A stretch of DNA of 64,000 bases, taken from Polytrichum commune (Eukaryota; Streptophyta; Polytrichopsida; Polytrichales; Polytrichaceae). Shown piece after piece: positions 10,803-61,600 of this stretch. The translations under genes and the position numbers were made by a program. Positions within the stretch are counted from its first letter, which is position 1, and the number at the start of each line of letters is the position of its first letter. The notes under the pieces are model-generated. The model was not told the origin of the DNA and ran no database searches. It saw nothing but the letters and a program-made list of their open reading frames with translations. The stretch is taken from NCBI GenBank assembly GCA_950295325.1, contig OX485805.1, positions 28,135,501 through 28,199,500 of the forward strand, in the 5' to 3' direction.

Positions 10803-11767
10803 AGATCAGGGCCCGGGCAGAACCGGCGGTTAGGTACAGATGAACCGGTTGAGTTTGAGAAATAACCAGTTGAAGTTGGAGACTTCCAGAGAATTACATA
10901 TCATTTTAGAGGAATCTATACAAGAATATACCTCAAATGAATGAAAGCAAAACCGGAAGATGTCAACCTATGATGGGGGAGAACCGGCAGTTAGTTACAG
11001 ATGAACCGGTTGAGTTTGAGAAATAACCGGTTGAAGTTGGAGACATCCAAAGAATTACCGATCATTCTAGAGGAACCTATACAAGAATATACCTCAAATG
11101 AATGAAAGCAAAACCAGAAGATGTCAACCTATGATGGGGGAGAACTGGCAGTTAGTTACAAATGAACCGGTTGAGTTTGAGATATAACCGGTTGAAGTTC
11201 AAGACTGCATGAAAATTACTGATCATTTTAGAGGAATCTATAGAATATACCTCAACATGTAACCGGTTGGACTTGCAAACACAAGGATCTCAACCGGTTA
11301 TGCCCAAAAATCTCCCCGATCACTCATGTCAACATGTTAACCGGTTGGAATTAGAATCACTTGGATCTTGACCAACTATTCCCAAAAACTTCCCGAGCAC
11401 TAGTCAAGATCCTCGTGATTCTAAATCAAGCCGGTTATAGGTTGACATCATCTTCCGGTTTTGCTTTCATTCATTTGAGGTATATTCTTGTATAGATTCC
11501 TCGAGAATGATCGGTAATTCTCCGAAAGTCTCCAACTTCAACCGGTTATTTCTCAAACTCAACCGGTTCATCTGTAACTAACCGCCGGTTCTCCCCGATC
11601 ATAGGTTGACATCTTCCGGTTTTGCTTTCATTCATTTGAGGTATATTCTTGTATAGATTCCTCTAGAATGATTGGTAATCCTCCGGAAGTCTCCAACTTC
11701 AACTGGTTATTTCTCAAACTCAACCGGTTCATCTGTACCTAACCACCGGTTCTACCCGAGCCCTGAT
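10803..11767. mobile_element. Foldback element with tandem-repeat arms
   Basis: The left tip TCAGGGCCCGGGCAGAACCG and the right tip, reverse-complemented TCAGGGCTCGGGTAGAACCG, are inverted repeats. Each arm is made of diverged ~170 bp units containing GATGAACCGGTTGAGTTTGA and ATGAATGAAAGCAAAACC, three on the left and about two in reverse on the right. AACCGGTT recurs throughout. No ORF is inside and no clear target duplication was found. A diverged relic of the same unit lies near 43740-43970. Confidence 0.7.
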
Positions 11768-15821: not shown

Positions 15822-15880
15822 ACATGAACGACGAGCGGTGAGCAATGAACGGTGAGCAGTATCACATGAGCAATGTGCGG
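15822..15880. repeat. Orphan heptamer repeat matching the 28.47-40.05 kb transposon ends
   Basis: Tandem GAGCGGT / GAGCAAT / GAACGGT / GAGCAGT units followed by TCACATGAGCAATG mirror the left TIR at 28487-28560. No transposon body is attached, so it is a stranded end or a short relative. Confidence 0.5.
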
Positions 15881-20269: not shown

Positions 20270-21517
<1,248 letters not shown>

Positions 21518-21582
21518 GACTTTTCAAAACTTTTACAAAGTTTGAACTTCCTCCTTTCAGAGGCCAAATCCTTCAATAACTT

Positions 21583-22387
21583 CTTCCCTCCTTGTTAGTA
21601 CATTGCACATTTTAACCTTTACACTTTGGAGCATTTTGAAAATATTTTTACTATGTATAACCTTGGAGTACTCACACCACTATGGTTTGTAAGTGTGTAT
21701 CCTTTCCAAACCAATATGTAACTTAAGCCCAACATATACAAAATCAAGTTGAATGTGACTAACTAAGAGTCTTTCAAAGTCATTAACAAGGTATCATTGT
21801 AAAACATGCCTTCTAACTTGTGGAATGTTTACTTCCTCTATACACACTATTTCATAATAAGATGGTATACAAAACCTAATAAGGCCGTCAAACTTGTGAA
21901 GGGTCTGCCTCACCTGTGCCCATGCAACCAACCAACAAAACATTGAGGATTAGTTACGTACACGAGGTGAATAACAGCAGAACCCAATTGTTATCTATGT
22001 CACACAAATACATGAGGCATAATCATACATTTTGTATCCCGAAATACTCACTAACCTCAATGAGTATTCTACCTGTTCTTTGGCCATTTGAGAACCCACA
22101 GCTTGTAGTAAATCACTTTCACTTTCAACAAGCTCCCACCTTGTTTACCCTAATCACCAAAATTACCTAAGGTAAACAGCTTCCACGGTTTACTCTTGGA
22201 AAGGAAGTACTCAAGTGGGCTTCCTCTTAATATACGATTAGGTAATCGTTTAGGACCGTAGATTCGCACCATCAGATCTATGGTCGTTCATCCTTAGTTG
22301 GCCATTGCCTAGTACCAAGGTACAAACTTTTTAGGGTAAAAATTAATTGTGTGGTGTCAGTTGGTTCAAATCAGACCTAGAGCTAGG

Positions 22388-22390
<3 letters not shown>
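21583..22390. repeat. Terminal direct repeat (pLTR-like) A of the Penelope-like element
   Basis: About 0.8 kb, identical by eye to 26886-27692, from CTTCCCTCCTTGTTAG to AGAGCTAGGTAGGAGAG. It lacks TG...CA ends and ends in a GA tract (to ~22421), so it fits a pseudo-LTR of a Penelope-like element better than a retroviral-type LTR. Confidence 0.75.
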
Positions 22391-22422
<32 letters not shown>

Positions 22423-22559
22423 CCCACCACCTTTTGTAAATCCCCTGGTATGTCAAATAAATTCCAGAAATGAGATGCATGTATATACTTATAACAGACA
22501 TAGCATGCCCCCACTTTCGGTTTGCATACCAGCCCTCTAGTATATTCTCTGCTCTGCTC

Positions 22560-24695
22560 TCAGACATAAGCCATTTCTAAGGATTTTCCCAGATTGCTAC
22601 TTATATATATCTCTCTCACAATGTAATAGAAATAGTAGTGCCTAGATAGAGGTGTACCTTGTATAAGCTGAATAAGGTCTGTTACCTTAAACTTGATTGC
22701 TGGGAAAGTTGTGGTTGAAAGGGTCGAGATTACCAGTTGTAAAAGTTTTTGTTTCCGGAAGCCGTTGCTAGAAAGAGTGTTGATCAACTTCTGAATCTCT
22801 TGTCTTGCCAGTATAATGTTATTAGACAGATACAATATAGGAATTGTCTGTGATATTATAACATTATATGCTTGTTTTACTGGTCTACATGAATTAAATT
22901 TTATGTATTGCGTATACGTGAATGGAAGGTCACGTCTCTTATCAAACTTTTGGAGGGAGAATTCTCCTACGTTTTCATTGGATATGGTTACAAGCGCATT
23001 CATGAAGTGTGCCTTGGTACCATGACTAGGGTTTGTGTCAGAGAAATTAGACACTTCCGTCTTAATTTCCAAAATGTGTAAAGGATAGATCCAAAAAGGG
23101 TTATCCATTACCCTTGGTTGTTTGGGATCAAGGAAAAGTTGTGCGTCCCCAATATTGACCCAACAAAGGTCGTCAATATAGCGAAACGCATATGCAAACT
23201 TAGCCATGAGATCCATCCTTCCAAGTTTGGCTAGTCTTTGGATAAATTTAATCTCATACGACATTAGGTAGAGATTGCACCATAAAGGGGAACAAGAGAA
23301 TCCCATTGGGATCCCTAGTGCTTGCTTCCATATCTGGTTACCTAGTCTAATGTAACAGTTAGTGGTGAGCCATTTGTGCAATTCCAAAAATTTAGTGACT
23401 GACATGTAGTTCCAGTTACCATAGTTAGGGCATGTGGAAGCCCATACTACTTTGGATGTTACACCTTGTGTATTAGATTTAAACCAAATATTCATTTCAC
23501 TTCTAGGGTGCTTTCTTTTGAAGTTTTTAACCCCAAGTGATGTGATGAACTCCATGGCTTCAAACAAAGTATCATTACCATTGACCGGAATAGTCTCAAA
23601 GCATCTAGTAATATCCGCAACATAAATGTTGTGAATATTGTTTGGTAAGTTGATACAAAAGTCATTTATGGAGTCTATTACCCAATAAATGGACGTATCT
23701 ACTCGGAGGAAATTTTTGTATCCTTGTATGGTAGTTTTAGCCCACTCCTTAACCTCTTCAAGGAGGGCCATAGTGGCTATGGTAATCAATGTAGCCAAAT
23801 TGACAAAGATGGAACCAAAGGCATTGGTTATCCACCTATACTTCTTTTTATGGAATTTATAGATGGCCATAATATACGGTAGTTCTTTGCCATTGATAGG
23901 TAATTCCATCATAAGTTCTTGCATTGTTACTAGGAGAGGATTAGTTACCTCATCTAGTGACAACCATTTACCATTGGTTATGCAAGGTATGAAGTCAAGA
24001 CTATTGAGTCTATTCAAAGCTTGAATTCTTATGTGACTAACACATATGAAGCAAGCATTGTTAGATGCCTTATCTAATCCTGAAATGTAGACGTGTTTGA
24101 GGATCCAACTCAATTCGTCATTAACAACATTTTCTGAAAAAAGATAAGGTTGCGAGTACCTGAATCCAAACTTGTTTAGCTTGCAAGCTTCAAGTAAAAT
24201 AGTCCTACATCTCCTTCGAACCTCCTTGCAAGCATGCTCCATGTCTACTATATCTGTTATGTTGAGTACCTGGCACACTTGTATGAATGTGTCACATACA
24301 ACTTGGATTACCTCATGTATTACGGTGGGTCTCAAGGGTATATGATTCAAACCCATTTTGAGGGCATGTCTCAGTCCCTTGTGTTGGATGATGGAAAGAT
24401 CCATAGTCCTTACATGACCCATCATTTTTTCTTTTTCTTGGTCATTATCAATTGCTTCCGGGTCAATGAACTTCCTTAGCCTGTTAGAGGAATGACATAT
24501 GCATTTGACCTCTTTTGCCATGAGTTCAGGAATGTCAAAATCTTTGAACACCATGCCTGGTTTATAGCAAAACACAGACATGTTGGGGTGATAACACCAT
24601 GCAAACATAATATTAAAAAGAGCAGGTACAAAATGTGGGATGGAGAGGAACATGAAAATTTCTGAAAAGAATTTTTTCATATGTATCCATTCCAA
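22560..24695 (-). CDS. Penelope-like reverse transcriptase, endonuclease-deficient type
   Basis: An intact 711-residue ORF. RT motifs are in order: an early block at ~206-227 (GLDKASNNACFICVSH), IYKFHKKKYRWIT at ~278-290, motif A ADITRCFETIP at 360-370, motif B GIPMGFSCSPLWCNLYL at 461-477, and motif C FRYIDDL at 504-510 with the catalytic aspartates. A FMNALVTI-like primer grip and a thumb region follow. The early DK block, IPMG and R-YIDD are Penelope/telomerase-like rather than LINE or LTR type. No GIY-YIG endonuclease is visible at either end, no RNase H and no integrase, as in the EN-minus Penelope groups (Athena, Coprina), which are known from non-flowering plants and use free 3' ends. 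It lies 295 bp downstream of ORF1. The lack of stops suggests a recent copy. Confidence 0.8.
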   Translation of the reverse strand: MEWIHMKKFFSEIFMFLSIPHFVPALFNIMFAWCYHPNMSVFCYKPGMVFKDFDIPELMAKEVKCICHSSNRLRKFIDPEAIDNDQEKEKMMGHVRTMDLSIIQHKGLRHALKMGLNHIPLRPTVIHEVIQVVCDTFIQVCQVLNITDIVDMEHACKEVRRRCRTILLEACKLNKFGFRYSQPYLFSENVVNDELSWILKHVYISGLDKASNNACFICVSHIRIQALNRLNSLDFIPCITNGKWLSLDEVTNPLLVTMQELMMELPINGKELPYIMAIYKFHKKKYRWITNAFGSIFVNLATLITIATMALLEEVKEWAKTTIQGYKNFLRVDTSIYWVIDSINDFCINLPNNIHNIYVADITRCFETIPVNGNDTLFEAMEFITSLGVKNFKRKHPRSEMNIWFKSNTQGVTSKVVWASTCPNYGNWNYMSVTKFLELHKWLTTNCYIRLGNQIWKQALGIPMGFSCSPLWCNLYLMSYEIKFIQRLAKLGRMDLMAKFAYAFRYIDDLCWVNIGDAQLFLDPKQPRVMDNPFWIYPLHILEIKTEVSNFSDTNPSHGTKAHFMNALVTISNENVGEFSLQKFDKRRDLPFTYTQYIKFNSCRPVKQAYNVIISQTIPILYLSNNIILARQEIQKLINTLSSNGFRKQKLLQLVISTLSTTTFPAIKFKVTDLIQLIQGTPLSRHYYFYYIVREIYISSNLGKSLEMAYV

Positions 24696-24990
24696 TGCCC
24701 TGCTACAGTAGAAGACGTGTACGATCCCAGTATGATTTGTTTTCTTTTTTCTAGTAACAACTTTCCTACCAAGAGTGTTATATGTGAGTTGTCTCTGATC
24801 AGCTGTTTATACCCAAAAAATATGTTTTAGTATCATAACTAGGTATAACAACATTCTTTGATATATGTTTAATTCACAGCTATAGAAGTACTCACAGACT
24901 AAATAAAAATGAGTATCAGCTGTATTCAAAATTGAAACTGAACTTGCGACTGAAAACGAAACCGAAATAGTATGCCAGGTTGGCTCTGGT

Positions 24991-26730
24991 TTACTCCTCC
25001 TCGTCCCACAGAAGGACTCTGCGCTTAATTGGGGACGTCATATTGTTGGAGTTGCCTGGTGTGTATCCTCCAAACCCGTTGGAGTTAGCTGGTGAGTTGC
25101 CAGGTGGGCCGTTCCCCGTGCTGGCTGTCTGTGAGTTAGCTGGGCTTCCCCAAAGGCTTGTAAGTCGTCCCGAGGGTGGTGTAGACAGGTTAGGGTTGCG
25201 GCCACTCCGTCCACCTCCCCGACCTCGGTACCCTCGGCCGCCTCGTGCAAAGCCGCCGCGACCTCCTGGAGTTCCTCTCCCTCTTCCTCCTACAAAGCCC
25301 CTGTCTGTGGGCGATGAATTCAGATTGAACTTCTATCGCTTGTATGGAGAGGGCGCTTTGCTTGGGGATCCGGGATGTGCAAGAGAGAATTTGGGTCCTT
25401 TGAGGAGTCTCTCAATTTTACTTGCAATAGGAGTGTCTGTGATGTCCATGAGCAACCCCTGATTGGGATTTTCAGAAAGTTGTATAGCTGCACTAATCAT
25501 GTATTCTCTTGTTGTATGGAATACAATTGCAGCCTTGACTGCTACTCTTGCTGATTCTCTCATCCAAATCATGAATGCAGCAAATCTAGCTATTGCAGTA
25601 GGGTAGTTAGGAAAAAAGATTTCCAACTTGTTAACCATGGTCCATACTGCATGATCGAACCATATAATGGATCCTTTGCATCCACTTGTGGCTCTAGGAT
25701 TACAGAGGCATCGCATGTAGGGTCTTTGCACATTCCACATTTCGGATAAGTGCGACTCCTTGCGATTATGACCAGTGGGTAAATCCTGTTTTGTATGAAG
25801 CTTGACCTCAAGGGTGGTACACTTAGCATGATCAAACATGGTAAGTGGAAATGCATGTGTAAGGTCCATTGGTGCTCTCAATACTCCAAAGTTACTCAAT
25901 GCTTGCTTCTTGTACCCTTCCACCTCTTGATCTGTAAATCCTGTCCATGCTTGCCACATAGGGATAGATATAGGAGCAAGGAGGTTTGTATTACCTATAG
26001 CCCACATTCTATGTTGATACTTTGCCACTAGAAGCTCCACACTTCGCGGTGGTTTGATAGGTACCACTGGGCCTTTGCTAGTAACCATGGTGTTCTTCTG
26101 TTTTTCAATTTGAGTAGACAGTATGCCATCACAGTATTCCTCCAGTGCGCTCTTATCGGCTTCAGATATTCGGAGCTTGGCTAGCAGCGGGTGCGTGCTG
26201 CTGCCCTTTCCATCCTCTGGTCCTTTTATCGAACGCACAGACTCGCTGTTGAGTTCATCTTCATTGGCCAGCTTCAGAGTCGCCTCCACCCTCTGTGCTA
26301 TCTCTGCAGACCGAAAAGCATCTGTTTCGTCGTCTGAGATCAGTTCCTGCAGTCTGGACTGAGCCATCCGCAGTCTGCTGATGGTTTTCGTTGTATCAGT
26401 TGTGGCTGTGACAAAGAGTGTTGTCCAGGACGCGAGATCTAGCGTATCCAGGAGTAGCGGTCCGTGCATACCATCATCATCAGCCTCGTTGATGACTGCA
26501 ATATCAGATTCTTGTATGAAGGCATGAAATTCTGGTATATCAATCACTGCCATGGTGGTTTGAACCGCCGGTATGGGGGCAGGTAGCGGAGGCCCGTAGC
26601 CTAGTGTGACCATTTCTGCACTCCATGCTTGAGTTTTTTGATCCGACTGTCTCACATTTTGTTCACAAGCAATGTAAGTATAATAGATAGCACAGATATA
26701 TATAAGAATGGATGGTAGCAGCTTCCACAC
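24991..26730 (-). CDS. Penelope-like element ORF1: unknown core plus RGG-rich tail, one in-frame TAG
   Basis: The frame runs 579 codons from 26730, with a TAG at 25333-25335 (codon 466) and then 113 further codons in the same frame. The tail is rich in RGG/GRG (FVGGRGRGTPGGRGGFARGG), then Asn/Ser/Pro, ending RRVLLWDEEE. RGG boxes bind RNA, so a nucleocapsid-like ORF1 role is inferred. Residues 1-465 match no family I know; the N-terminal LLPSILIYICAIYYTYIA is hydrophobic, and Met at codons ~40 or ~61 could be the true start. The smooth continuation after TAG argues for a recent nonsense change or for readthrough. It is upstream of the RT on the same strand. Confidence 0.65.
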
Positions 26731-26746
26731 TGCTAATGGATGGTCT

Positions 26747-28470
<1,724 letters not shown>

Positions 28471-28689
28471 GGGAAGCTATCTTATGAGCGATGAGCAGTG
28501 AGCGGTGAGCGGTGAGCAGTAACACATGAGCAATGAGCAGTAACATATGAGCAATGATTCCAAATTTAGTAAAGACACACGGGTTTAGGGTACACAACCA
28601 AAATTTTGACAAATTAATTGCATATTTTCAATTGTAAATTGCCAATATTTTAAATGAAGCACAAGTGAAAGGGCCCTATTTCCATAGAT

Positions 28690-28930
28690 CATTTAAAACA
28701 CTTTCAATTCATTGCTGATTTTTATTATAATAATCCAAACCAATACATGTCATTTATTGACATCCTTATACATGTAATTACAACCAACACTTGCACAACT
28801 ACTCACATTCCACAACACCATCAAGCTCAAGTAGGTGCATAACCTCATTATACGTACATGTAGGTGCCATAATTGTGAGCCACTCAAACTGCTCACGGGT
28901 TGAATTAAGGCCCAGAATCTACAAATGAAA
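28690..28930 (-). pseudogene. Truncated duplicate of the transposase 3' end
   Basis: Aligns with 29260-29460: the shared CATTGCTGATTTTTATTATA, ACTACTCACA and a reading TYNEVM-LLEL close to the C-terminus of the transposase. The two copies are separated by a SINE-like sequence. No upstream coding sequence is attached. Confidence 0.65.
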
Positions 28931-28984
28931 GGAAATTAGATATTAGAAATAGTCAATATGTAGGTAACTACTAGATTTTGAAAC

Positions 28985-29180
28985 ATCCGCCTGTGGATGC
29001 GAGTTGTGTAAGAGACTGGTATTAGGTCTGTATCAACCCGGGTTCGAATCCGGTTGGTTACATTGACTGGTGCTATCCCAAATTGAGCTAGTGATAAAGC
29101 AGGAATAATTTATAGGCGGATACCAAGAAGACGTTACTACGCGGATGTGCGTAGAATCTTCTCAATTATTTTTTATTTTT
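28985..29180 (+). mobile_element. tRNA-derived SINE-like sequence
   Basis: CCCGGGTTCGAATCCGG near 29038-29054 is a strong Pol III B-box (GGTTCGAATCC). An A-box-like segment lies ~50 bp upstream, and a T-rich end follows near 29165-29180. The 5' part does not fold into a convincing acceptor stem with the 3' part, so I read it as a SINE, not a tRNA gene. Confidence 0.5.
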
Positions 29181-29374
29181 AGAAACTTGTTATTATTTAT
29201 CCATGTCAATCAATCAAACCGCTCACGGTTGGGTCGTAGTCTAAATAGAAATGAAGTTACTGAATCATTTGAAATACTTCCAGCCCATTGCTGATTTTTA
29301 TTATAAAAATCCAAACAAAAACATGTCATATTTTGACATTCAAATATATGGTACTTAATAGACCATTTGCAATA

Positions 29375-32300
29375 CTACTCACACTCTACAATACCAGCAA
29401 GTTCAAGTAGTCGCATGACCTCGTTATAGGTATATGTAGGTGCATGAATGAACTTGTCACTCTCGTAATCCACCTTGCACAAAAATCTAAACACATAATA
29501 AAGATGTTTACAATACACCCATTTTCCTTTATTTCCCAATGCATGAGAGGACATTTTCGTGAAATCCGGGCATGTGCAATGCGGGATGTCGCCAATTGTG
29601 ACATGGTAGGTGATATCATGCTTGGAGACAATGTTGATTATCACTCCAAAGCCCGGATATGGAATGGCAGTGACCCCAACCACATAGTAACCCTCCATGA
29701 GCCCGGCGCTCTCCCATTTGTTTTTGTGATCCGCTAGCGGTGTTGTTGGATTACGACGCACTGTCTTTCCAAACCTGAATGTAGGGTGGGCGTCCGGGTT
29801 TGGTGGCATAGAAAAATGCGAGCGAGGGATGGGGAGAGTTGCGATTGTTGAAAGTCTACGACGAGGGAACAATGCCTCCCTCTGCTGTAGTTGAAATCCA
29901 GCATCTTCAAGTGCCAAAACCTCCTCTCACGATAGATTGGTACCTATCTTCACCGGCCATGTGTTGGGTACTATAGGCCAGTCCAACACATATTTCTTCT
30001 TACTGCCACTCACACAACGTTTGATGTCGTCAGGGCAAAACCAAAATTCATACTCCACATTGTTGGGAGAGCGAAATTCCTTCCTGAGCCCTTTGTATGT
30101 TGGAGCAGGTGTGCCATGTTTCCCAGTCCCGACTTTGACATTACACATAGTCCCTGTGATGGCCTGCAGTGCCCAACATCGTTTGGCTGAGTTGGGTGGT
30201 AATCTTGTAATGTGCCACTTGGAAGCAAGACAATCTGTCTCTAACACGGATGTAGTATGAGCCACACCATGAATTGTAGAACTCAACGATTCCTCTATGC
30301 GTTGACGAGTTGCTCGGGTGTTCGGACGAGGAATGGAATAGTTCACTTTGTCGGGTCGATGAGAGTCACAATCAACACCCGGTGGTAGGTTGAGTTTGCA
30401 TTTGGTGGAACCAAAGAGCTCTGACCCTTCCAATGCACAATCTCTAGTGTTGACGTCTTCTGCCCCTGGATAAGACTTCATGGCATCGGCCAACATTTTT
30501 GGATCTCCACACCTGACAGCCGCTTTGAGTTTCAAGGATGCTGAATCAGGACCTTTACCATCAGACCCCCCTTTCAACCATGTCCGGTAATTTGCAATTT
30601 GTATGAAGGCACGGATCATGTCGTCCACTGTAGCTTCATATAAACAAGTCATCTTGTTGCCGGACTGTTGGAGCCATTTGTTGTGTACAGTCTCTGCAAG
30701 GTTACATGTTGGCATTTCCGCACGCTCTTCTATTGTCATATCCTATGAACAACACACAAATACAAGGATAAGACAAACATAAGATAAATTATATATCTAG
30801 GTTTGGGTCGTTCAACCCAAAATGACTGCCACGTTTGGGTCGAACGACCCAAACTGCCTACAAGGTTTGGGTCGAATGACCCAAACTGTTTGTTGTTTGT
30901 TATGTACAGTCTCTGCAAGGTTGCATATTGGCATTCCCGCACGCTCTTTTATTGTGATATCCTATGAACAACACAGAAAGACAAAAATAAGAAAAACATA
31001 GGATATATTACATTGAATAATGAAGTTTGATATGTACTTACAAGTAGCATATGGCCACCCCATTGTCTGTAACGAAAGTGCCAAAATCCCAACCACTCTG
31101 AAAGGCCAAGGATGCCTTCTTCGGATGCAGCTCCAGATGACAACCACCAAGAACGAATCACATGGTACTTGGTCTCAGCGTCGTCCATTGTTTTCGCGTC
31201 TTTGTAATCCTTGCATATTTGTTTGTGTTGAAATTGCAAGGATGGTTTGATATACTTTTGGGTCACCTTATCCAAGCTTGCGGACCAATGGAAAAGACAT
31301 GTACGCTCACGTGCAACCATGGGTAGACTTGGATCACCATCCCCGTAAATTGCCCTCACCGCATTCCAATTAGTTTGAGCACTATCAGCCATAAACCCTT
31401 TGAAGTTTACGTTTGATACATCATTATCTGCCATGACAACATTCAAATTTTCCCAAAAGAGAATTTGCGCTGCACCATCTTCAGATTGCATGTCACAACA
31501 CGCAATAGTCAACACTTTACAGTATCGACTGTCGTACACATGGCAAGCCATGGTCGTCCAGTCCTTCAAACGTTTGAGATGGTCAAACATAATCCATGAA
31601 TTCTCCATATCCCCACCGACTTGCATCCTCTTCACAAGCTCCACACCACTACCTGGAAGGTCTACAGACATCTTAAAAACAAACACTTTGTCCTTTGACT
31701 GCCTTGGGAACCGACTACCATGGACGAATTTGAAAGCAGAGTGGTCTTTGAGCGCCATAATACTATCCATAGTTCCCATTCCACTACGCAAAAAACGCTT
31801 TGATCCAGATACAAAGTTACGACAATTTGGAGAGGCAAGAGTGCTGAATTTGTCCATGACGACCTATAGGGATGAACCAACCAAGTGATGGCCTTCGACA
31901 TTTGCGGAAGATTTGAGAAGGTAATTGGCCAAAAATTGTTTGCTCGCCGCCATAACTATGGTTGAATTTTTTGCTGTGGGTGTTTTCAATACTTCATTTG
32001 CAACGCATTGGTATGCCATGTCCAATGATTCACGGCATGTGCCATTGGCCAGAGGGTGATCATGTACACCAAGATGAATGCAAGCCCTGGACATTCCAAC
32101 GGATGTGGAGTGAATGTATATGATTCGAGCATTACACAAAGCAATGCACACAGGTGTGGAACGACATACCTTACACTCGACAGTGGACTTAGTAGGGGGA
32201 ACAACACCCACAGTAAATGGGATAGGAGTTGAACCGGCCCATTCAGTGTTGTTCCGGAGGCCCCCATTGCGATTCATGTAATCATAGTAGTCATTATGAC

Positions 32301-33177
32301 ATTGAAGATGACCAGCACAAGTAGAGCACCGGAAGGACAGTCCAAAGTCATTTTGGATATTCGTGGTTTTGGTGGTGCACCAAGGGTGACCGTCGCACAT
32401 CTTGTCAATGCCGTCCATTGAGCGACCATACGTACTTGGAGCTTTGAGTGCCACATGAGGCAAGAGAAATAAAACATCACCATTAAAAGAAGATGGTAAG
32501 TACTTGACTTCACGAACATCTATACTGTCAAAATCAATGGATGCAAGATCGGACTTTGATCTTTTTTTTGACTTTGTCAGCTTCAAGGCATCAACCATAG
32601 TCAACCCTGTAGATGAAGGTGAAGGGTGTAGTGGAGGACGTTGAGAAGGTGAGATTTGGGGAACCACCTTCTTGTACATAAGACCGCAAGGGGATTTGGC
32701 TACATGTATAGGAAGTTGGGAAGGAGTAGAATGAACACTTCTAAATGGAAATGGCGATGTGTTTGGAAGATCAATAGATGCACAAATGTCTTCTTCTGAA
32801 TCTGATAGCACAAATATACTATCATCAAGGGGTTCCACCTTAACAGGTGTGATAGAGGGAATTTGAACTGTGGATGTACCGGATTCGTTTGTCAAAATGA
32901 CAGTTGAAGCTTGCATTTGAGACTCAGAAAGTTCTATCACCTTAAATGAACCAGGTCCTAAGATCCACATAAAACCAACATCAGTTCTATTTTTTGGAAC
33001 CAAAATCGTTTCATACACCTCTCCATCTGCAGAGTACATCTCATGCTCTAAATACATGGTTCCTATCTGGAGATTGAATCTCAAACTAAATAAATCCTCT
33101 GAAACACTCACATGACCATCATCTTGGAGTGGCAAGATGAAGGGAACAAAAGATCCATGAGCTCTAATGGTAGCCAT
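29375..33177 (-). pseudogene. MULE-like transposase with SWIM zinc finger, two in-frame stops
   Basis: Exon 1 is complement(31042..33177), 712 codons, ending ACTT|GTAAGT. Exon 2 is complement(29375..30742), opening after TTCATAG; phases agree (0/0). In order: a Ser/Pro-rich N-terminal region with an acidic patch (~115-135), a cysteine-rich segment at ~260-300 (FRCSTCAGHLQCHNDY), a MULE-type core with GFMADSAQTNWNAV (~595-607) and CLFHW (~627-631), then NLAETVHNKWLQQ, and a C-terminal SWIM finger C-x-C-x19-C-x-H (CTCPDF ... YCKHLYY). SWIM after a DDE core is typical of MULE transposases; KDZ-type elements are an alternative. In-frame TAG 31864-31866 and TGA 29927-29929 interrupt an otherwise continuous product of ~1165 residues, so this copy is probably inactive. 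Confidence 0.75.
30742..31015 (-). repeat. Partial exon duplication with three palindromes inside the transposase intron
   Basis: The start of exon 2 and its acceptor (30742 leftwards) are copied at 30961 leftwards: ATAGGATAT-ACAATA-AAGAGCG and CCTTGCAGAGACTGTACA occur in both. Between them are three GTTTGGGTCGNNCGACCCAAAC-type palindromes at about 30801, 30833 and 30865, exactly 32 bp apart, the first with one mismatch. The duplicated acceptor may compete with the real one. Confidence 0.75.
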
Positions 33178-33699
33178 AGAAAATTAAAAAAACATATGAA
33201 CAACACATCACAAAAATATGGGGTGAATGTTGCTTTTGTATAGAGTTGTGTGAGGAAATGAATGGAAATAAAAACGTGTGATACAATAATGGATGGAGAT
33301 GAAAGCGTGTGATAAATAACATCTAATAATACAGAAGTGGACATAATACAATAATAGTCAGAGACTATTTACGAGCAAGATATACACAAAACGGCGTCAA
33401 ATACTAAAAGGATTGGTAGAAATTTAAAATATATATGTGTGGACTGACGCAGATGTAGAAAGAATTAAAATTGGTTGGAAAAATAAATTATTGATTATTA
33501 TGAATAGAACAAAGTAGGTGTCAGAAAATTTTGGCGGATATAACAAAAATAAACACATAATGACAAACGCGTTGAAATATCTCGTTCATTGAACACCAAT
33601 TACAACATGTGATCGTAATATACGCCGGATTTTGTGAGATAGATACATTGGAAGAATAAATGATAGTACCTGATAGAAAACATATCATAGACACCAACG
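33178..33699. promoter_or_regulatory. Divergent promoter region between transposase and ParB-methyltransferase genes
   Basis: About 520 bp separates the two start codons, which point away from each other. It is AT-rich, with AAATTTAAAATATATATG near 33420-33440. No specific operators are recognisable, and neither palindrome family occurs here. A bidirectional promoter is inferred from the layout only. Confidence 0.5.
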
Positions 33700-34084
33700 A
33701 TGGTAGACGATGTAGAGAGAACACCCGTGAGGCCGAAGAGAAGACGTAGGAAAGCTTTGTATTTCACTTCCGACAAAAAGAGGTTCAGACTCAGTGTGGG
33801 AAAGAATGATGCAAAAAAGGAAGGGAAAAGAAACTTATTGAGTACGGTAGAAGAAACTGTGAAGACACTGGATTTTGATGCGATGGAGGATGATGAAGGT
33901 GCAAAGAGCAAAGAAGATGTAGACGATCGTATATCAGAGTCCGAATTGAAGACGGGTTCAAAGAAGACGACAAACAAAAAGGTAAATCAGTTCAACGTTC
34001 ACATAATTTGATAGTGTATAAGTTGTAAGTTAGGACGGAGAACCTTGTACGATCACTTACATGTCATGTAGTAGCAATTTATAG

Positions 34085-34530
34085 AGGTTATAAATTGGAG
34101 AGGAGAAACCCTATACGTTAATGCACTTGGTATATAACAGAAATTTAGAAAGGCTAGAAGTCAGGAGGAGAACGCACAGGGTTTATAAGAGCAACTTAAG
34201 AGACGAGAAGTTGGGAGGCGAAACCATGTGCGTTAGCGTACAGGGTTTATAAGAGCAACTTAAGAGGCGAGAAGTTAGGAGGTGAAACCCTGTACGTTAA
34301 CGCACAGGATTTATAAGAGCAACTTAGGAGGCAAAAAGTTGGAAGGCGTTAATAAGGCCAAAAGTTGGGAGGAGAAACCCTGTGCGTTAACGCACAGGGT
34401 TTATAAGCGCAACTTAGGAAGCCCAAAGTTGGGAGTAGAAACCCTGTGCGTTAACGCACAGGGTTTGTAAGCGTAACTTAGGAAGGCCAAAGTTGGGAGG
34501 TAAAACCCTGTGCGTTAACGCACAGGGTTT
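34085..34530. repeat. Palindrome array II: CCTGTGCGTTAACGCACAGG on a 64-bp register
   Basis: The core TGTGCGTTAACGCACA is a perfect palindrome. Matching positions fall at 34227, 34291, then 34381, 34445 and 34509, i.e. 64 bp apart within each run. Degraded or half copies lie near 34112 and 34171. Units share AAACC-TGTGCGTTAACG and a GAGCAACTTAGGAGGC spacer. The array lies in intron 1 of the ParB-methyltransferase gene. Confidence 0.9.
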
Positions 34531-34980
34531 GTAAGAGCAATTTAGGAAGGCCAAAAGTTGGGAAGTAAAACGACTAGGAGAGCCTAAAATTAAAACAAAT
34601 ATCTATTGTATGAATTTAAATCGATGTTCAGAACATAAGAGCAAAAAAACTATTCAAAACGAGGTGAGAATGCAAGAAATGACAAATATGATTACTCAAG
34701 TACTCATGCAATACGTTATAGAAGCTAGAAAATGACATAAAATAGCATAAATTTTTTTTTGCCCCGAAACCCAAATTTACGAGGTGGCCCAAAACAAAGA
34801 AATAGATAGAAGAATGAGAAAAGAAAATCATTTCAAACCAAAACAAAACATCATAAGAATTTGTAGCTACGAAGATTTAGATAATATAGCATATTTTTGT
34901 TTTTTTTTTTATCCCATTAGCATTTTTTCCAGATTTTACAAGTTTTGGCAAATCTACGAATTCCAACATTTCAAAGTCAC
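34531..34980. other. AT-rich spacer between palindrome arrays, no gene
   Basis: Intronic AT-rich DNA with poly-T runs; no repeats or coding sequence are recognised. Confidence 0.5.
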
Positions 34981-34984
34981 GTCT

Positions 34985-35205
34985 CGGCCCTGTGCGTTAA
35001 CGCACAGGGTCTATGTGCTAACGCACAGGCCTTATGTGCTAACGCACAAGGTATATGCGATAACGCATAGTAACTAGAAAGTTGCCAGCACAAACCCTGT
35101 GCGTTAACGCACAGGGCCTACTTGCCTAGCTAGAGGCTTCGCAAAATTGGGCAAGTAGACCCTGTGCGTTAACGCACAGGGTCTGCGCTGGCAACTTTCT
35201 AGCGG
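34985..35205. repeat. Array II palindromes within a large cruciform-like inverted repeat
   Basis: 34988-35068 holds one perfect and three decayed TGTGC-TAACGCACA palindromes about 21-23 bp apart. 35072-35203 is an inverted repeat with ~55 bp arms (CTAGAAAGTTGCCAGC, then the full palindrome, then CTACTTGCC) around a ~20 bp loop, so each arm contains its own perfect palindrome. Confidence 0.85.
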
Positions 35206-35417
35206 CTATGCGGGGCCACGAAGAGCCATGCTAAATATGGCTGCAGGGACAAGTAGTATTAATTGCCACAACCCCAAAGCATTCAGTTTTTTTTCTCTCC
35301 TCCGTCGGACCTGAGCTCATCGCTGCAAGCTCTCTCATCTACAGGTGCAATACAAGGTTTGTTTGCACTTTCGTGGTGACTGGATAATTGCGCATAATCA
35401 GGCGTAAATTGCGGACA

Positions 35418-35778
35418 GTTTGGGTCGGCCGACCCAAACTGTGTGCCTAGTTTGGGTCGGCCGACCCAAACTGTGTGCCTAGTTTGGGTCGGCCGACCCA
35501 AACTGTCTACCTAATTTGGGTCAGTCTACCTAATTTGGGTCAGTCGACCCAAACTGTGAGCATGGTTTGGGTCGACGGACCCAAACTGTCTACCTAGTTT
35601 GGGTCGGCCGACCCAAACTGTGAGCCTAGTTTGGGTCGATCGACCCAAACTGTCTACCTAGTTTGGGTCGGCCGACCCAAACTGTGTGCCTAGTTTGGGT
35701 CGATCGACCCAAACTGTCTCCCTAGTTTGGGTCGGCCGACCCAAACTGTGAGCATGGTTTGGGTCGTTCGACCCAAAC
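35418..35778. repeat. Palindrome array I: GTTTGGGTC-NNNN-GACCCAAAC on a strict 32-bp register
   Basis: Palindromes start at 35418, 35450, 35482, a half copy at 35514, then 35533, 35565, 35597, 35629, 35661, 35693, 35725 and 35757. Spacing is exactly 32 bp except for one 19-bp step. Half-sites TTTGGGTCG are invariant or nearly so, while centres vary (GGCC, GATC, GTTC, others). The spacer is TGTGTGCCTA or TGTCTACCTA. It lies ~250 bp before exon 2 of the ParB-methyltransferase gene. Confidence 0.95.
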
Positions 35779-38700
35779 CTCGCGTCCAACTTTGTTAGAC
35801 CTGTAGTTGGACGCACAGGGTCTGGCCTTGTAGTTTTGGGGTGAGCGGCCACCCTAATCGTACAATATTTAAAGGTACAAATGACTGTGTCTAGAATAAT
35901 TTTTGTCATTCTTCCTTGTGTTCGTGGTATTCTGTTGTTATTGTTGTTGCTATTGCTGTTGTTTTTGTAATGTTATTGCTAATGTGTTGCTACTTGTTTT
36001 GAAATATTTATGAAACTTATTTCATTTGTTTTAGGACCAATCAATGGATTTGGAAAGAACGACTCCTATTTCTAGTGATGATGATTCCACCATGCATTCA
36101 ACTCAAGATCGTCCATCTCAACAAGTTCATCATCATCAGGACATATCGTCAAATCTTCATAATAAGAAAAAGAAAAAAATAAATGAATCCCTCGTTGATT
36201 TTGACTCGGATGAAGATAATGATGGTGACAATAAAACTTATTAAGAGAAAGTGTGGGAGCTTACGAACAAACGAAAGGTCAATTCCACTTCCATAATTTC
36301 TTCAATCCGTGCTGGACCTAATGCTCGCTTGCGTGTACCCTTATGTCGCATGGTTCCTATGCCGATTGTGCGTCCTGCTTTGAAGGGTGATATTACTAAA
36401 TTGGAGGCTGATTTTTTCAATGGTTATCGTGATGGTGACCGTGTGTTTTATATATCGGCCACCGATTCTAAGGGAAACTTTCAATTCGTGGATGATGAGG
36501 TTCGCGCATCTTGGAGCCCAAATTGGGCTCAAGCCAATGTCCTGTTTGAATCTCAATTGGATACAGATTTGTCATTGACGTCAAACAAGAACAAGATATT
36601 TTTTATATGGGATGGAAATCACAGATTTCTTGCTTGGAAAAATTATATTGACCGCGTATATACCGAAGATTATGAACGTCATGTCTTTGTGGATTTTATC
36701 ATTTTGGCGCCCGAGTCTGACGACATTCCAAGTTTGTTGACTACTCTGCATGACATCAACAAGTAATGTTCTTACCTATTTTTTTACACTTATTTCTAGT
36801 TTATATTTTGTTTTCCAAATTATATCATCATGAATCTAATCAATTTAATGTTTTTTTTAGGTCAACCGAAAATTCTCACGTATCCACCAATTTGGTGCAT
36901 ACTTTATATCGGATGCAAAGTATTGGCACCATGCCTTTGACTTCCTTCATAAAGCAACTGGATCCAAAGAGTTATAAACGATGTGAGGAGAAGTCCGTCA
37001 AAACTTGGTATTCTTTGACACGACCAATTTTTTTGGATTACATGTACAGTGTAAGTTCTTCTACCATTGCTAATATGTGCCTTATGTTTATTCACCTTCA
37101 TTTTACATTACATCTATATGAACTTATAAATATTGACTTTTGTTTGATTTTTCAGCAAGAACTTGCTGAGGCTAGCGATATTGCTCTCAACCAGTACAAT
37201 GAAATTCATCCTCTTGAACGGACATCAGACGGAATTTCAAAAGCAATGTCCGCAGCTGTCAACAAAAAACGTGCAATGTTCTCTTCTAGTTTTACGAAAC
37301 AACTAGCGATTGCCGATATCAACCTTACCTCTGCTTTCCTTGAAGAAGTTAAGCACCATTGGGGTTCATTTTCGGTGCCTGAAATGCTACAAGAGAAACT
37401 TCATTATGTTGCTGTCAGTAATGTGGATGCAGAAGTCAAAGTTGGATGGCTCAAGCTTTGGAATGGCAATAGATTTGACAAAGATGCATTGCATTTCCCG
37501 AAATCGCCCCTCTCTGATTCTGCACTTGATGATTGGTTATCAAAGTCTACATATTGGGCACAGTTGGAAAGAAAGGCTATCGAAGAGCTTCAAAGTATTC
37601 TTTCATCTCCTCTTCAGTTGCCTGTAGATGTGCCTACTCTCTTCGAGTATATCCAAACCTGGAAGTTTGCGGCTTTCAATTCAATATTCTATCGTGAATT
37701 CCAAAGCGGAAAAGTTAAAAAACACAACGGTTGGGATGAGCAACCTAATATTGATCTTGTTATGAAACGTGTATTATACAGGTACAACCTAATCTTATTA
37801 TTTTTTTGATTTTTTTTATGCCATTTGTCAAATTATCATGGAATATTTGACTTACAATATTTTTGTGTGTAGGTATTTTCGATATGTTTTGATTCCACAT
37901 AAATGCGTTATAGGGGAACCTCGTTTTTTCCCAAATTGGCGTGACACTGGTGCAGGAGATTCATGCATGTTCACTACTGAGATTTGTTTGGATTGGTCGC
38001 TCCCACACTATGAGGATTGTGGTTGGTATCTTGATTGTCCTAAGGATGCATGTCCGTGAAGTGAGAAGACAATCCGTTAGATAAATGATGCTAAAAATGT
38101 GGATCCTCGTGATACTGCAATTTTGAAAGCACAAATTGTGCAGCTTAAACTTAGAGAGCCAGAACCAAAAGAGACAAAACGTCGTAAGAGGAAACATGTT
38201 CCTGAAACCAAAATACAAGATCAATCGGAAATTTCACAACATAAAGATTTGCTTGTTCTTTCCAATGATTTGGATAAGAATCCACTTGGAGGCGAAAGTT
38301 CAAAGTCTGGGTGCGATGTATTGGAATTTCATTACTCGAGCACCTATGACGCTATTCATCGTGCGCCAACGAATGTTTTGAGAAAATAGTTATTCATACT
38401 GAAGAACTTTCTCACGCTCTCTTTTGCTCGATCTACTGCTGTCAAGAACAAGTCTGAAGGGGTTGAAGTAGGCCCTCCTGAGTGGATCCAATGGCGGACA
38501 TTTCTTGAAAACGTAAGTATTATTGTTTTGGTATTTTCTGTAATGTTCTTACTTTCATTTGGATTTTATTTTGTGTCTTATATTGTGATATGTTGTGGTA
38601 TTTCAGTTCAAAGACAATCGCGAATTTCATGTCATGGGAAGTCCGACTCCATTTGCCATTGACTTGGTTTTTCTGCAATTTCCCGACGGTCTTGACTTCA

Positions 38701-40045
38701 ACCTCTCCAATAGACCTGCTGAAATTCCTCTTTGGAATAAATATGACAAGAAATGCATGGTTGCAACAATGTCCTTGTGCAAGTCCATCTTGTCTGATGA
38801 TGGCGTCCTCATAGTATTTTCTGCTATCGATATGCAAACCAAGAAGGTTTTGAATTCAACCTTACACAACGGCAACATGAAAGTTCTTAGGACTTTTATT
38901 TGCCTCAATTCGTACATGGTGTTCAAGGATCTGGAGTCTCCAACCTACACCGTAAGTATAACATATCACAATTGTTTCTATTTAATTATTTTGGTGTTAT
39001 TTGCATTGTATATAGTTTTAACACAATTTATATTTTTTTGTAGATTCCGGCATTTATGGCTCATGTCTTGGTAAGGGATTTTACTACCACAAAATCCACG
39101 AGACAACCAAACTCCACTTTTTTTGGCACTGGATTGAAAAGCAAAAACTTGCTTTTCAATTTTGTGGATGAAAAAAACATGCTTCTTCAAAAATCGGGAA
39201 GACCTTGGAGGGGGCCATATCAAAAATCGCCGCGTTTTTTTCAAGATCTTATTGAATTGTTTACACCATCGAATGGACGCGTTGTTGATTTGACGTGTTC
39301 CACTGGAGCTTCTATCCTAGCAACACGCGCATGTGGCAGACATCTTCTTGCATTTGAGGGTGATAATGACATGTTTGAGCACATATTGAAACCTCTTTTG
39401 GAAAACGTTTTGAAAGAGGGGTCATCTAAGGAGAATATACAAGATCTCACAAAAGAAGATGATAACCTCTCAGATGAGGAGATGCTTGAATTTGAGTGTA
39501 AGTAAGTTTTAATACAATAAATTTTTATTCAATTCATTCGTTTCATTCAATTCATTGGTTCATTTTTATTTCTTCACATTATTTACATGTTTCATCGATT
39601 TGATTTAAGGAATACGATTGGAAAGAGGACATGTCTCCCGTTTTGGGCACATAGAGAATTCCTACGAAGTCCAAGCCGTAGCCCGCGTCTCCCATCATAT
39701 GCCGAGAATGTTGCAATTGCAATGTTGAATCTCGAAGATTCGGATCCAAATGAAGAATCTTGCTATAGTTCCAAAATCAATTCACAATGCAAAGGTGCTC
39801 GAATATATATAGATGACGAGGAAAAAGATAGTTTCATGTCTAGTGCTACTACTGATGAATAAATTTTTGGACTTCATGTTGTTTATCCTTCTCAACCCTC
39901 TTATTACTAAACCCTAAAATCATCATTTTTAAGGCCACAATTCCACGGTTATAGGATATTGGTGGCCCTATTACCAAAATTTTCATCTTCCTCACTGCTC
40001 ATAAGTTACCGCTCATCGCTCACCGCTCATAAGATAGCACTCCCC

Positions 40046-40530
40046 GTTCAAACATGATCCTTGGCCATGACTAAGTTACTCCAAGTAGAATACTCCTCTT
40101 GGTGATTTGTCCTTGTTCCTCTCACTTTCCGCACGTATCAACTATTCTAGTGAGTATGCACAAAGTCACCTCACCTTGCGCTTGCGTGAATAGTAAGAAA
40201 AGGAGGCTTCTTTTAGGGTCAGGGGTTTATATTGGAGTTCTTACCTATGGTAAGTTCTTCCAAACCATGTTTTTTACCATGGGTTACATACGTGATTCAC
40301 GGTTGTAATCATGGTTACTATACCTCTTTCATCTACATCCTCGTTACATATCTGGTATGGAAAGTATGATCATTTTCCATGTATGTATATGTAGGATCTC
40401 TTGCTTGTATTGTAATCTATTTGTAAAGAAAACAATTTTTAGTTGACTAATGTGAAAGTTTATAATCACAAAGTGTTTAATATCGTAGCCTTGATCAAGA
40501 ACTAGAGAGAGAGAGAGAGAGAGAGAGAGT
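40046..40530. repeat. Old repeat copy 4, right part, ending in (GA)n
   Basis: Continues the homology to copy 1 (AAGTAGAATACTCC, CTTTTAGGG, TTTATATTG, GGTAAGTTC) after the transposon, and ends in a GA tract at about 40503-40530. Confidence 0.7.
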
Positions 40531-57933: not shown

Positions 57934-58624
57934 GAGCTGCGGTAAGTGCTAGATCGTCCTATTCCTCGGAAATTTTGGGCTTTGTAGGACGTGGTTGCTT
58001 ACATGACAACTCGCTGAAGTGAAAGTCACATGTACAAGCAAGACACACAAACCACAACAAAAGTTCGAAATGCACCAAGTCCGCAGACTCTCTCTATCTT
58101 TCACGGAAATGTAGATGTGAAATTAGCCTTCCTCTGTGATGTGAGTTTAAGACTTCCCTTGCTAATGTACGGTGCTTGATTCTTGAATAGGTAGTTGGCT
58201 TGCTGGCGGCTCCCAATTAATCACCAACTACCGAGGAGGTCGGATGTTTCTGCAATGATCTCGCTTCTGAGTGCGTCCCCTAATCCCTACTTTCAAACCT
58301 TTTAGCTTAGGGGTACTCTTAGATGACTTAAACTCAAACGGTAATCCGTGAACGCGGAGTGAACTTCTGTAGTCACTTAGGAGTCCTAGTTGTCGACAAT
58401 GACTTCCACAAGTCATATTGAAGTCACTGTCACCCAAATTCCAGTTAGTCATAAGTCAGTCATAAGTCATTGAAGAGGCATTTTGTAGTCATTCCCATGT
58501 GTCAACAAACCCTAAACCCCAAGAATAGAGGTTAGTGACGCTAGTGACAATTAATAAGTATTTTGTGTCACTAACATCACAATTAATAAGTCCTTAGTGC
58601 TAACTAGAGTTTGTTGACAGTGTT
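57934..58624. promoter_or_regulatory. Divergent intergenic region of the CACTA element
   Basis: About 690 bp lies between the two start codons, with repeated AAGTCAT and GTGACT-like hexamers at 58370-58600 resembling the subterminal repeats. In En/Spm, TNPA acts on such motifs near the promoter; the same is inferred here. Confidence 0.5.
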
Positions 58625-61600
58625 GTGAAGAGGAAAGTCATGATACCCAACAGACTACCGTTGTCTGACAGTAGAAGGCAGCGATTACGAGATGACAGAC
58701 TCTGGGTTAGGGAGTTGAAGCGAGCCAGGGAGTGCAATGTTCAGAAATTGCATTGCCCTTGCATAAATTGTAGGGGGCGTAAGAGACTATTCATACGGAA
58801 CGTGCGGGAGCACCTCATCCAACACGGTCGACATCCTGATTCACGGATTTGGAGAGGCCCAGGCGCTAGAGATTCTTCGGATGAAGAGTGGGAACATCAA
58901 TTCTGGGGACCTATTGAAGTAGAATGTGATGGAGGACATGACGTTGGTGATACAAGTGCTCCGATTGCGCAAAAAACAAATGGGTTGGATGCCACCGTGG
59001 ACACTCGTGGCATGGTCAAGCAGGCACTACCAACAGTGGACGTTCAGGCATATTCTGGGGAGCGGCTTGGCGAGGAAGTCAGGGATGCCTTTGGCATTGC
59101 TGATGCCGTTCATGAAGAATTCAGGGATGCGGAATTCGGTGACGAAGTAGGGGAAGAGGAGTGTCGTGATGAGGAACTAGCAGTTGATGTTGATGTTGAC
59201 AAGGGAGACAGTGACCCCCAACTTGACGACAGGGCCCTACAGGATTCACTGGAGCACTTATATGATGGGTCTCGTTGCAGCAAGCTTGCGGCCACAGTGT
59301 TATTGATGAATTTGTGCACTGTGCACGGAGTGAGCAATCAGTGCGCGAACGAGCTCTTTAGCATTTTGCATCTGCATGTGTTGCCGGAGAACAATACATT
59401 GCCGCGATCCCATCATGCCGCAAAGTCCCTTACTGCAAAGTTGGGTTCGACATACAACACCATCCATGCATGTGAGCACGGGTGTGTGCTATTCCGGGGA
59501 CCCCATGAGGATGCACTTCGCTGTCCTGAATGTGGAGGCCGTAGATACCAAGATGAGGAGCGGCGTTGTTATCCGCTGAAGGTGCTTCGTCACTTTCCCA
59601 TCATTCCACGGTTGCAGTGCATGTACATGAGTCCGAGCATCTCAAAACTGATGGTATGGCATGCAGAGAACCGGAGCAACAAAGACAGAGGGGATGGCTT
59701 GGTTAGACACCCCTGTGACTCGAAGGCATGGCGGCATTTTGAGGAAAATGTCGACCCGAGCTTCGCACTTCATCCTCGAAACGTCCATTTCGCTTTGGCA
59801 GCCGACGGAGTGAACCCTTACAAGCAGAATCAATCCACATGGTCAACGTGGCCCGTTCTATTGCTGAATTACAACTTGCCTCCATGGCTGAGCACCAAAT
59901 TTTTTTTTATGATGATGGCTCTATTGATTCCAGGAAAGGAATCTGTGACAGCTGATGTGTTTGACGTGTACTTAGAGCCTCTTGTGGATGAATTGTTGGA
60001 GTTATGGGCTGGAGTGCCTGCTTACGATGTATCAGAAGTTGCAGGCTCGAAGACTTTCCAATTGCGTGCCATGTTGCTATGGACAATCCATGACTTCCCA
60101 GGCTACGGCACCGTTGGCGGTTTTGCTCATCAAGGCTACGTGGCATGTCCTTGCTGTGGAGAGGATTTAGGCGCAGAGCATTCAACCGAACTTGCTAAGC
60201 AAACTTACGGTGGTACTCGACATTGGCTGCCTGAAGGTCACCCGTACAGGTCACCTGAAATGAAGGACCACTTCAATGGAGAGATGGAACATCGACCAAA
60301 ACCAAGGGAAGTGACAGTGGAAGACCAAATTCGACATGCTCTGGAGTGCGAGGCTTGGAGGGCCGACGGAAATAGGTGGGGTGCTCCTGGAGATCCTTCC
60401 AAAGTACATGGTGTGAAACGTCTCAGCATTCTCTTCCGCTTGCCGTATTGGAAGGTCAGTGACTAGATCCCCATTGAAATCTCGTGGAATGACTTAAAAA
60501 TGACTGTCACTGAACTACATGGGGTACTATCGTAAGTGCTTACTGAGTCACTGCGTAGACATACAGACTTTGTAGTGAAGTTGATTTACTCTCAGGAGAC
60601 TCGGAAATGACTTTTCTCTGTCTGTAATGTTTAGAATCTTCTCATTCGGAACACGTTGGACGTCATGCACTACGAGTTGAACCTAGCAAAGAACTTCCTG
60701 AAGACCATCGCAGGGAAGAAGGACACCGTAAAAGTTAGAAGAGACTTACAAAGGAGGAACATTATACCACACCTGTGGCTAACACCAAACCCACGAAAGG
60801 CAGGGAAGATGGTGAAACCACGCGCTTCTTATGTCTTGTCCGATGCAGAATTTGACAAGTTTGTGAAGTGCATTGAGTCCTTAAAGACGCCTAATGGTTA
60901 CTCTTCAGACCTTGGCAAATGTCTCCGAAAGAAGAACTTTGGGGGGTTAAAGTCCCACGATTACCACACTCTGATGCAGCAAGTAATGCCACTAGCTCTG
61001 CGTGGACTGATGGAACCCGGACCTCGCACGGCTGTCATGAGAATGTGTCGGGTATTTCGCCGGTTGTGCACGAAAGTGTACAATCCCGCAGATTTTCCAT
61101 CACTTGAAGCGGATGTGGCAGAGAGCATGGCGTTATTGGAGATACAATTTCCACCCTCATTTTTTGACATCATGACGCACCTCCCATATCACTTGGCAAA
61201 GGAGCTGGACTTGTGTGGCCCAGTTAGTGCCCGTTGGATGTATCCAGTCAAACGTTTTATGAAAGTGTTGAAGAACCATGTCAGGAACATGGCGCGTCCA
61301 GAGGCTTGCATGGCGGAGGGTTACTTGAAAGATGAATGCATAGGCTTCATTACCGAGTACCTCCACCGATTTGAAGGAACTCAAAGACGTGTATGGGATG
61401 AAGACGAAGAATATGGAGATGCTGAGGAGGTCCTGCAAGGGCAGGGAAACCGTACGTTATGAGTCCAGAAATGAGAGTTGTAGCCCACCAGTACGTGCTA
61501 TCAAATGCCTCGGCTATGCAGGATCTGTTCATGTAATTTGGAACTGACCATTGTACGTGTTGGCCATGCTTGAAGTGAATCTGGAATCACTGTCGTGCAA

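Follow-up and report, generated by a model that had tools for sequence, protein, structure and literature searches.

A stretch of 64,000 nucleotides from Polytrichum commune (NCBI GenBank assembly GCA_950295325.1, contig OX485805.1, positions 28,135,501 to 28,199,500 of the forward strand), referred to below as the window and numbered from its first letter, contains a transposon with terminal inverted repeats (TIRs) at positions 28471-40045, lying between two copies of the target duplication GTTCAAACATG(A). The element carries two divergent genes, one on the minus strand that appears to encode a transposase of the Mutator-like element (MULE) type, and one on the plus strand predicted to encode an accessory protein that joins a ParB-type domain to a methyltransferase-like C-terminus, together with two classes of palindrome that may be the binding sites of that protein. 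The boundaries of the element and its insertion site are as follows.

28459-28470: left target-site duplication, GTTCAAACATG(A), 11 or 12 bp, a direct repeat of 40046-40057; the empty site agrees with 11 bp
28471-28557, plus strand: left TIR, starting with GGGAAGCTATCTTATGAGCG and made of heptamers TGAGCRR
39991-40045, minus strand: right TIR, with its reverse-complement end at 40045
40046-40057: right target-site duplication, a direct repeat of 28459-28470
20726-21197, plus strand: unoccupied homologous site outside the element, with the target copy at 20954-20964

Both TIRs start with GGG, have GCTATCTTATGAGCG.TGAGC in common, and then continue as tandem TGAGCRR heptamers. Alignment of the two 60-bp ends gave a score of 28, against 14 or less in 1000 shuffles of the left end, and a scan of the window for TIR-like ends, conducted every 3 bases on both strands, reached a top score of 17 in the rest of the window, at a heptamer remnant near 15.8 kb. 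That 52-bp stretch (15822-15875; 86.5% identity to the left TIR heptamers) may be what is left of a related element, and no partner end for it was found within the window. At the insertion site, the left flank matches 20726-20964 (86.7% identity over 240 bp) and the right flank matches 20954-21197 (74.6% identity over 260 bp), and these matches overlap by one 11-bp copy of the target with no element between them. The flanks, the duplication and the empty site constitute a clean insertion signature; the target duplication could also be 12 bp long, with a change at a single base of one flank.

The two genes, with two exons on the minus strand and eight on the plus strand, are interrupted by GT-AG introns of consistent phase; the splice sites were placed by eye and then checked by script, and the gene models were constructed without a gene finder. 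In-frame stops are found in both genes (two in the minus gene and four in the plus gene), and because of them the copy in the window makes neither full protein and is inactive. The minus-strand gene is organized as follows.

31042-33177, minus strand: transposase exon 1, with an N-terminal beta-rich domain, a Cys/His-rich region and a predicted DDE/RNase H-like core; in-frame stop at 31864-31866
30743-31041, minus strand: transposase intron, with three class A palindromes (described below) and a duplicated exon 2 start
29375-30742, minus strand: transposase exon 2, with a SWIM pattern (CTC...YCKH); in-frame stop at 29927-29929

The transposases of MULEs are RNase H-like DDE enzymes related to those of IS256, and the minus-strand gene is, according to its modelled fold, a transposase of this MULE/IS256 type. 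The nearest solved fold to its core is that of ISCth4, followed by integrase cores and Hermes, the likeness to ISCth4 being at the level of the fold only (9% identity; root-mean-square deviation 12.1 over 164 residues), and a protein search returned 112 relatives of the transposase. Unlike the element described here, the IS256 family is prokaryotic and is not known to possess a SWIM finger or introns. The CxC..CxH pattern of a SWIM finger is present in the window, where PF04434 is matched at E 0.02 and 14.8 bits, under its cut-off of 19.6. The Pfam MULE transposase profile matched neither the window exons nor four relatives at E <= 1, and Pfam MULE profiles run against 45 relatives at E <= 0.1 returned nothing but one Transposase_mut match at 0.034. 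MULEs as a superfamily have been described as possessing TIRs and target duplications of 8-11 bp (PMC6446971; this and all sources given below by PMC number are cited from excerpts), and the duplication of 11 (or 12) bp stands at or just over the upper limit of that range. A sequence-only reading of the window had proposed heptamer-built TIRs, an 11-12 bp target duplication with an unoccupied site at 20954-20964, a divergent gene pair with consistent splice phases, and a MULE transposase with a SWIM finger; these proposals were borne out, respectively, by the scores of the ends, by the flank matches, by the script check of the introns, and by the SWIM pattern, the ISCth4 fold and the 112 relatives.

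The start of transposase exon 2 is duplicated over 118 bp at 88% identity (30677-30794, repeated at 30896-31013), with class A palindromes between the copies. Downstream of the transposase gene, 28985-29180 contains a tRNA-like B box (GGTTCGAATCC, which we take to match the B-box consensus) and is perhaps a short interspersed element; it sits between 28688-28867 and 29264-29443, which are two copies, 79% identical, of a segment made up of the last part of the transposase gene and the adjoining 3' flank.

The plus-strand gene comprises eight exons.

33700-33981, plus strand: exon 1, the least certain exon, with a Lys/Arg-rich N-terminus
36035-36762, plus strand: exon 2, with a charged leader, a predicted ParB/sulfiredoxin (Srx)-fold domain and a DGNHR motif; stop at 36242-36244 in frame
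36861-37050, plus strand: exon 3
37156-37781, plus strand: exon 4
37873-38512, plus strand: exon 5, with in-frame stops at 38057-38059, 38078-38080 and 38387-38389
38607-38951, plus strand: exon 6, the N-half of the methyltransferase-like region, with LQFPDG at the position expected for D-P-P-Y
39044-39501, plus strand: exon 7, the methyltransferase motif X/I region (GPYQKS, VVDLTCSTGAS)
39610-39862, plus strand: exon 8, the C-terminus and stop

The ATG of exon 2 corresponds to the start codon in several intact relatives of this gene, and structural modelling indicates that the exon encodes a domain of the ParB/Srx fold. Among the 17 relatives that reach the DGNHR motif of the window, DGNH is found in 13 and the complete DGNHR in eight; a G-x-H/R-R motif presumably plays a nucleotide-pocket role in the ParB/Srx superfamily. 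The C-terminus displays the fold of a beta-class DNA methyltransferase of the N6-adenine/N4-cytosine type, in which motif I (VVDLTCSTGAS) aligns with VVDLTMGSGST of phage enzymes at a PHROG E of about 1e-5. The catalytic motif IV of beta-class methyltransferases reads D/N/S-P-P-Y/F/W. Five aligned phage enzymes have D-[VLI]-P-Y at this position and the plus-gene family has Q-F-P-D or variants, with D-P-P-Y kept in none of the 11 readable relatives, all of which are close. Since the usual catalytic motif is gone, binding is likelier than methylation, and the sequence suggests that the protein is probably a non-catalytic reader. The sequence-only designation of this product as a ParB-methyltransferase protein thus stands for the ParB/Srx fold and the methyltransferase C-terminus, and falls short at the catalytic motif.

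N6_N4_Mtase was the only match in the plus-gene exons covered by a Pfam scan, NCBIfam returned sub-threshold matches only (including methyltransferases for exon 7), and plasmid records gave four weak matches, all of them methyltransferases. A sequence search of the PDB with exon 7 placed the DpnA methyltransferase (0.58 and 0.72) behind two unrelated rows, and the same search with the ParB alignment found nothing but a ribosomal protein at E 0.034. A Pfam scan of 23 ParB-exon rows produced just scattered weak matches to single rows, none of them VANC-like, Pfam's coverage of VANC being unchecked.

A scan of the window that allowed up to 3 mismatches identified 22-bp palindromes of two classes, 14 of class A (GTTTGGGTCGNNCGACCCAAAC) and eight of class B (CCCTGTGCGTTAACGCACAGGG), and all 22 sites lie in non-coding parts of the element; 100 shuffles yielded zero sites, as did the window outside the element. 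They are distributed as follows.

30801-30886: three class A sites in the transposase intron, at 32-bp spacing, one perfect outside its centre and two with 1-2 mismatches
34224-34527: class B array (CCCTGTGCGTTAACGCACAGGG), five sites, three of them perfect, at spacings of 64, 90, 64 and 64 bp
34988-35181: single class B sites at 34988, 35095 and 35160, all perfect, in unlike flanks
35418-35778: class A array (GTTTGGGTCGNNCGACCCAAAC), eleven sites 32 bp apart, with one 51-bp gap

Relative to the two genes, the sites occupy the transposase intron and a region that is either ahead of the plus gene or within its first intron. Class A half-sites show a pairwise identity of 96% over the 14 sites (97% in the array), around a central 2 bp that is variable (GC, AT, TT, AA, GT or AC), and the ten spacers of the array are 77% identical. 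Over the eight class B sites, six of which are perfect, the cores show 94% identity, against 75% for the 26 bp before and 88% for the 16 bp after the five sites of the array. The class B sites at 35095 and 35160 fall within an inverted repeat at 35064-35212 (63 nt, 90% complementary, loop of 23 nt) that shortly precedes the class A array. From their sequence, the palindromes look like the sites of a dimeric DNA-binding protein, and their repeat distances of 32 and 64 bp would be near 3 and 6 turns of DNA. The palindrome patterns were absent from the viral contigs scanned, and Rfam returned no match at gathering thresholds. CpG is kept at 40 of the 44 palindrome CpGs, and the observed/expected CpG ratio is 0.82-0.89 in the arrays against 0.52-0.64 in their flanks; as a sign of protection from methylation this content says little, since the plus-gene exons are similar (0.83). 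A sigma-70 style scan was set aside as not applicable to a plant.

The analysis shows the anatomy of the element, its insertion, the modelled folds, the loss of the catalytic motif in the close family, the many relatives of both genes and the palindromes; we infer that the accessory protein binds the palindromes, with either anti-silencing or self-regulation as the outcome. In the mechanism that we propose, the transposase, through its DDE core and SWIM finger, would move the element via the heptamer-built TIRs, and the accessory protein, in which a ParB/Srx-fold domain is joined to a beta-class methyltransferase fold that has lost its catalytic motif, would recognize the element's own DNA, either itself or through a partner, via both palindrome classes. 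Binding may be cooperative, as the sites repeat at about 3 and 6 helical turns, and would control the expression or the chromatin state of the element, as VANC does for VANDAL elements. The anatomy and the gene identities, taken alone, are very probably correct; to the whole statement, that a ParB/dead-methyltransferase protein has the palindromes as its targets and serves to regulate or protect the element, we assign a probability of about 0.5.

The closest known parallel is provided by the VANDAL MULEs of Arabidopsis. Their accessory protein, VANC, is described as relieving silencing and as binding arrays of motifs that lie in the introns and upstream DNA of elements of its own family, and these arrays change by tandem duplication (PMC5735166; PMC10398659). 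The element described here is likewise a MULE with an accessory gene and with element-specific arrays in introns and upstream non-coding DNA, and SWIM is listed among the zinc fingers of the VANDAL group (PMC6446971). The VANDAL motifs differ in being 9 bases long and in one orientation, as opposed to the 22-bp palindromes found here, and the VANDAL target duplication is 9 bp rather than 11-12 bp (PMC6446971); in addition, unlike VANC, the accessory protein has a ParB/methyltransferase fold. The palindrome arrays render a VANC-like, self-recognizing role more concrete. The sequence-only suggestion that a ParB-methyltransferase protein solves the problem solved elsewhere by VANC is thus partly supported, by the folds, the gene family and the palindrome layout, and is altered in that methylation is less likely than binding.

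Several other explanations of the plus gene and the palindromes can be considered. The gene may belong to a host gene family, or to a bacterial family captured once, that plays no role in transposition, with the palindromes representing a satellite-like expansion or sites for host transcription factors. MULEs are reported to capture host fragments (PMC13317346). Exon-sized queries, consisting of pieces of exon 2 and exon 6, recovered 42 relatives (30 for exon 2 and 12 for exon 6) from a collection of proteins without genomic context. Over the aligned part, seven of the exon-2 relatives show just 39-47% identity and might represent host genes or components of other elements; the remaining 35 of the 42 are close (69-97%). 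The 155-residue core is whole or nearly so in 14 of the 30 exon-2 relatives and partial in the other 16, and several show a change of frame; decaying transposon copies have this appearance, although some of the partial relatives may simply run off the end of a short contig. The plus gene also lies inside the TIRs and has introns of its own. It is not a one-off gene, in keeping with the sequence-only reading, but a member of a multi-member family, and we consider a host or once-captured origin unlikely.

Additional searches for relatives were less informative. Cluster sizes varied in the searches with both genes (some close clusters are large, with 33 members for P0001, 39 for P0114 and 53 for P0120, and others have 1-6) and decide nothing on the origin of the plus gene. 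A tree built from the window and 14 of the 30 exon-2 relatives does no more than place the window within the close family. When residues 165-1100 of the full-length plus protein were compared with 5.8 billion proteins, none of 6498 candidates proved to be a match; we think that the whole-protein length filter hid relatives present as exon-sized open frames. Viral contigs contained no relative when scanned with the transposase alignment, the ParB alignment and a single exon of the plus gene, and neither did prokaryote genomes when scanned with the ParB alignment.

Recognition of the palindromes by the accessory protein must also be weighed against binding by the transposase itself, for which they would serve as internal enhancer sites. 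This is rather improbable, as the palindromes are remote from the TIRs (2.3 to 7.3 kb from the left end, more than 4 kb from the right end), and the TIRs carry heptamer repeats of their own. A role for the arrays as RNA, in which long hairpins feed small-RNA silencing or regulate splicing, is a little harder still to credit: the predicted RNA folding of the arrays far exceeds that of shuffles (class A, z -21.5; class B, z -16.8), but strong folding is expected of any palindromic array, and the varying central 2 bp, the less conserved spacers and the three perfect class B sites in unlike flanks better fit a dimeric DNA-binding protein. That the accessory protein is an active methyltransferase, marking the element with N6-methyladenine or N4-methylcytosine, would agree with its recognizable motif I and motif X regions and their alignment with phage methylases, but is made very unlikely by the state of motif IV in the window and its close relatives. 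Least probable of all, a ParB-fold domain that acts as a nuclease or nickase aiding transposition, rather than as a regulator, would have a precedent in Bce_0392, a bacterial ParB-methylase fusion reported to nick DNA (PMC5512222), but would leave the palindrome arrays unexplained.

The proposed regulatory protein can be compared with other known systems. Bacterial and phage ParB-methylase fusions, such as Bce_0392 from Bacillus cereus, similarly join a ParB/Srx domain to an adenine-methylase fold (PMC5512222); here, in contrast, the gene is spliced, belongs to a nuclear plant transposon, and encodes a lengthy unassigned stretch in its middle as well as a degenerate motif IV. TET/JBP genes in fungal transposons, and SET genes in oomycete MuDR and HarbingerS elements (PMC12730594), also represent enzyme-like accessory genes that possibly act on epigenetic marks, but they belong to other enzyme families and other hosts. 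One plant protein has a ParB domain before a DCD domain (PMC1182354), which is a different architecture. No description of a ParB-methyltransferase family in a transposon was found in the literature, as judged partly from titles and the starts of abstracts. Few transposons encode anti-silencing or chromatin factors of their own, those found being the carriers of VANC, TET/JBP and SET, and the present findings suggest that a plant nuclear genome contains a family of ParB-methyltransferase genes. If the accessory protein binds the palindromes, this would represent a novel means by which a transposon controls its own DNA, in which the silencing problem has been solved again by a prokaryotic partition-type module, and it would offer a directly testable protein-DNA pair. 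In a more speculative and rather unlikely extension, a bacterial-type ParB module and its parS-like palindrome arrays would have been taken over by a eukaryotic transposon, with the protein loading at the palindromes, spreading along the element or clamping onto it via its nucleotide pocket, and keeping chromatin open (or copies together) independently of the host machinery, in a manner unrelated to VANC, TET or SET.

The window harbors several additional features. Adjoining the empty site, the region 21415-27870 looks like a recent long terminal repeat retrotransposon: two 840-bp segments, 21582-22421 and 26886-27725, are identical to each other, and between them lies a weak reverse-transcriptase match on the minus strand (22563-24806; E 5e-4, under the cut-off). 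CACTA-type transposon genes are found at 58604-62415 (Transposase_21 at 5e-65, DUF4218 and DUF4216), a combination that points to a plant host. An open frame on the minus strand at 1888-2586 encodes a BTB/POZ domain, and 10815-11759 consists of tandem units of 161 bp that contain AACCGGTT, seemingly in both orientations, according to the consensus units.

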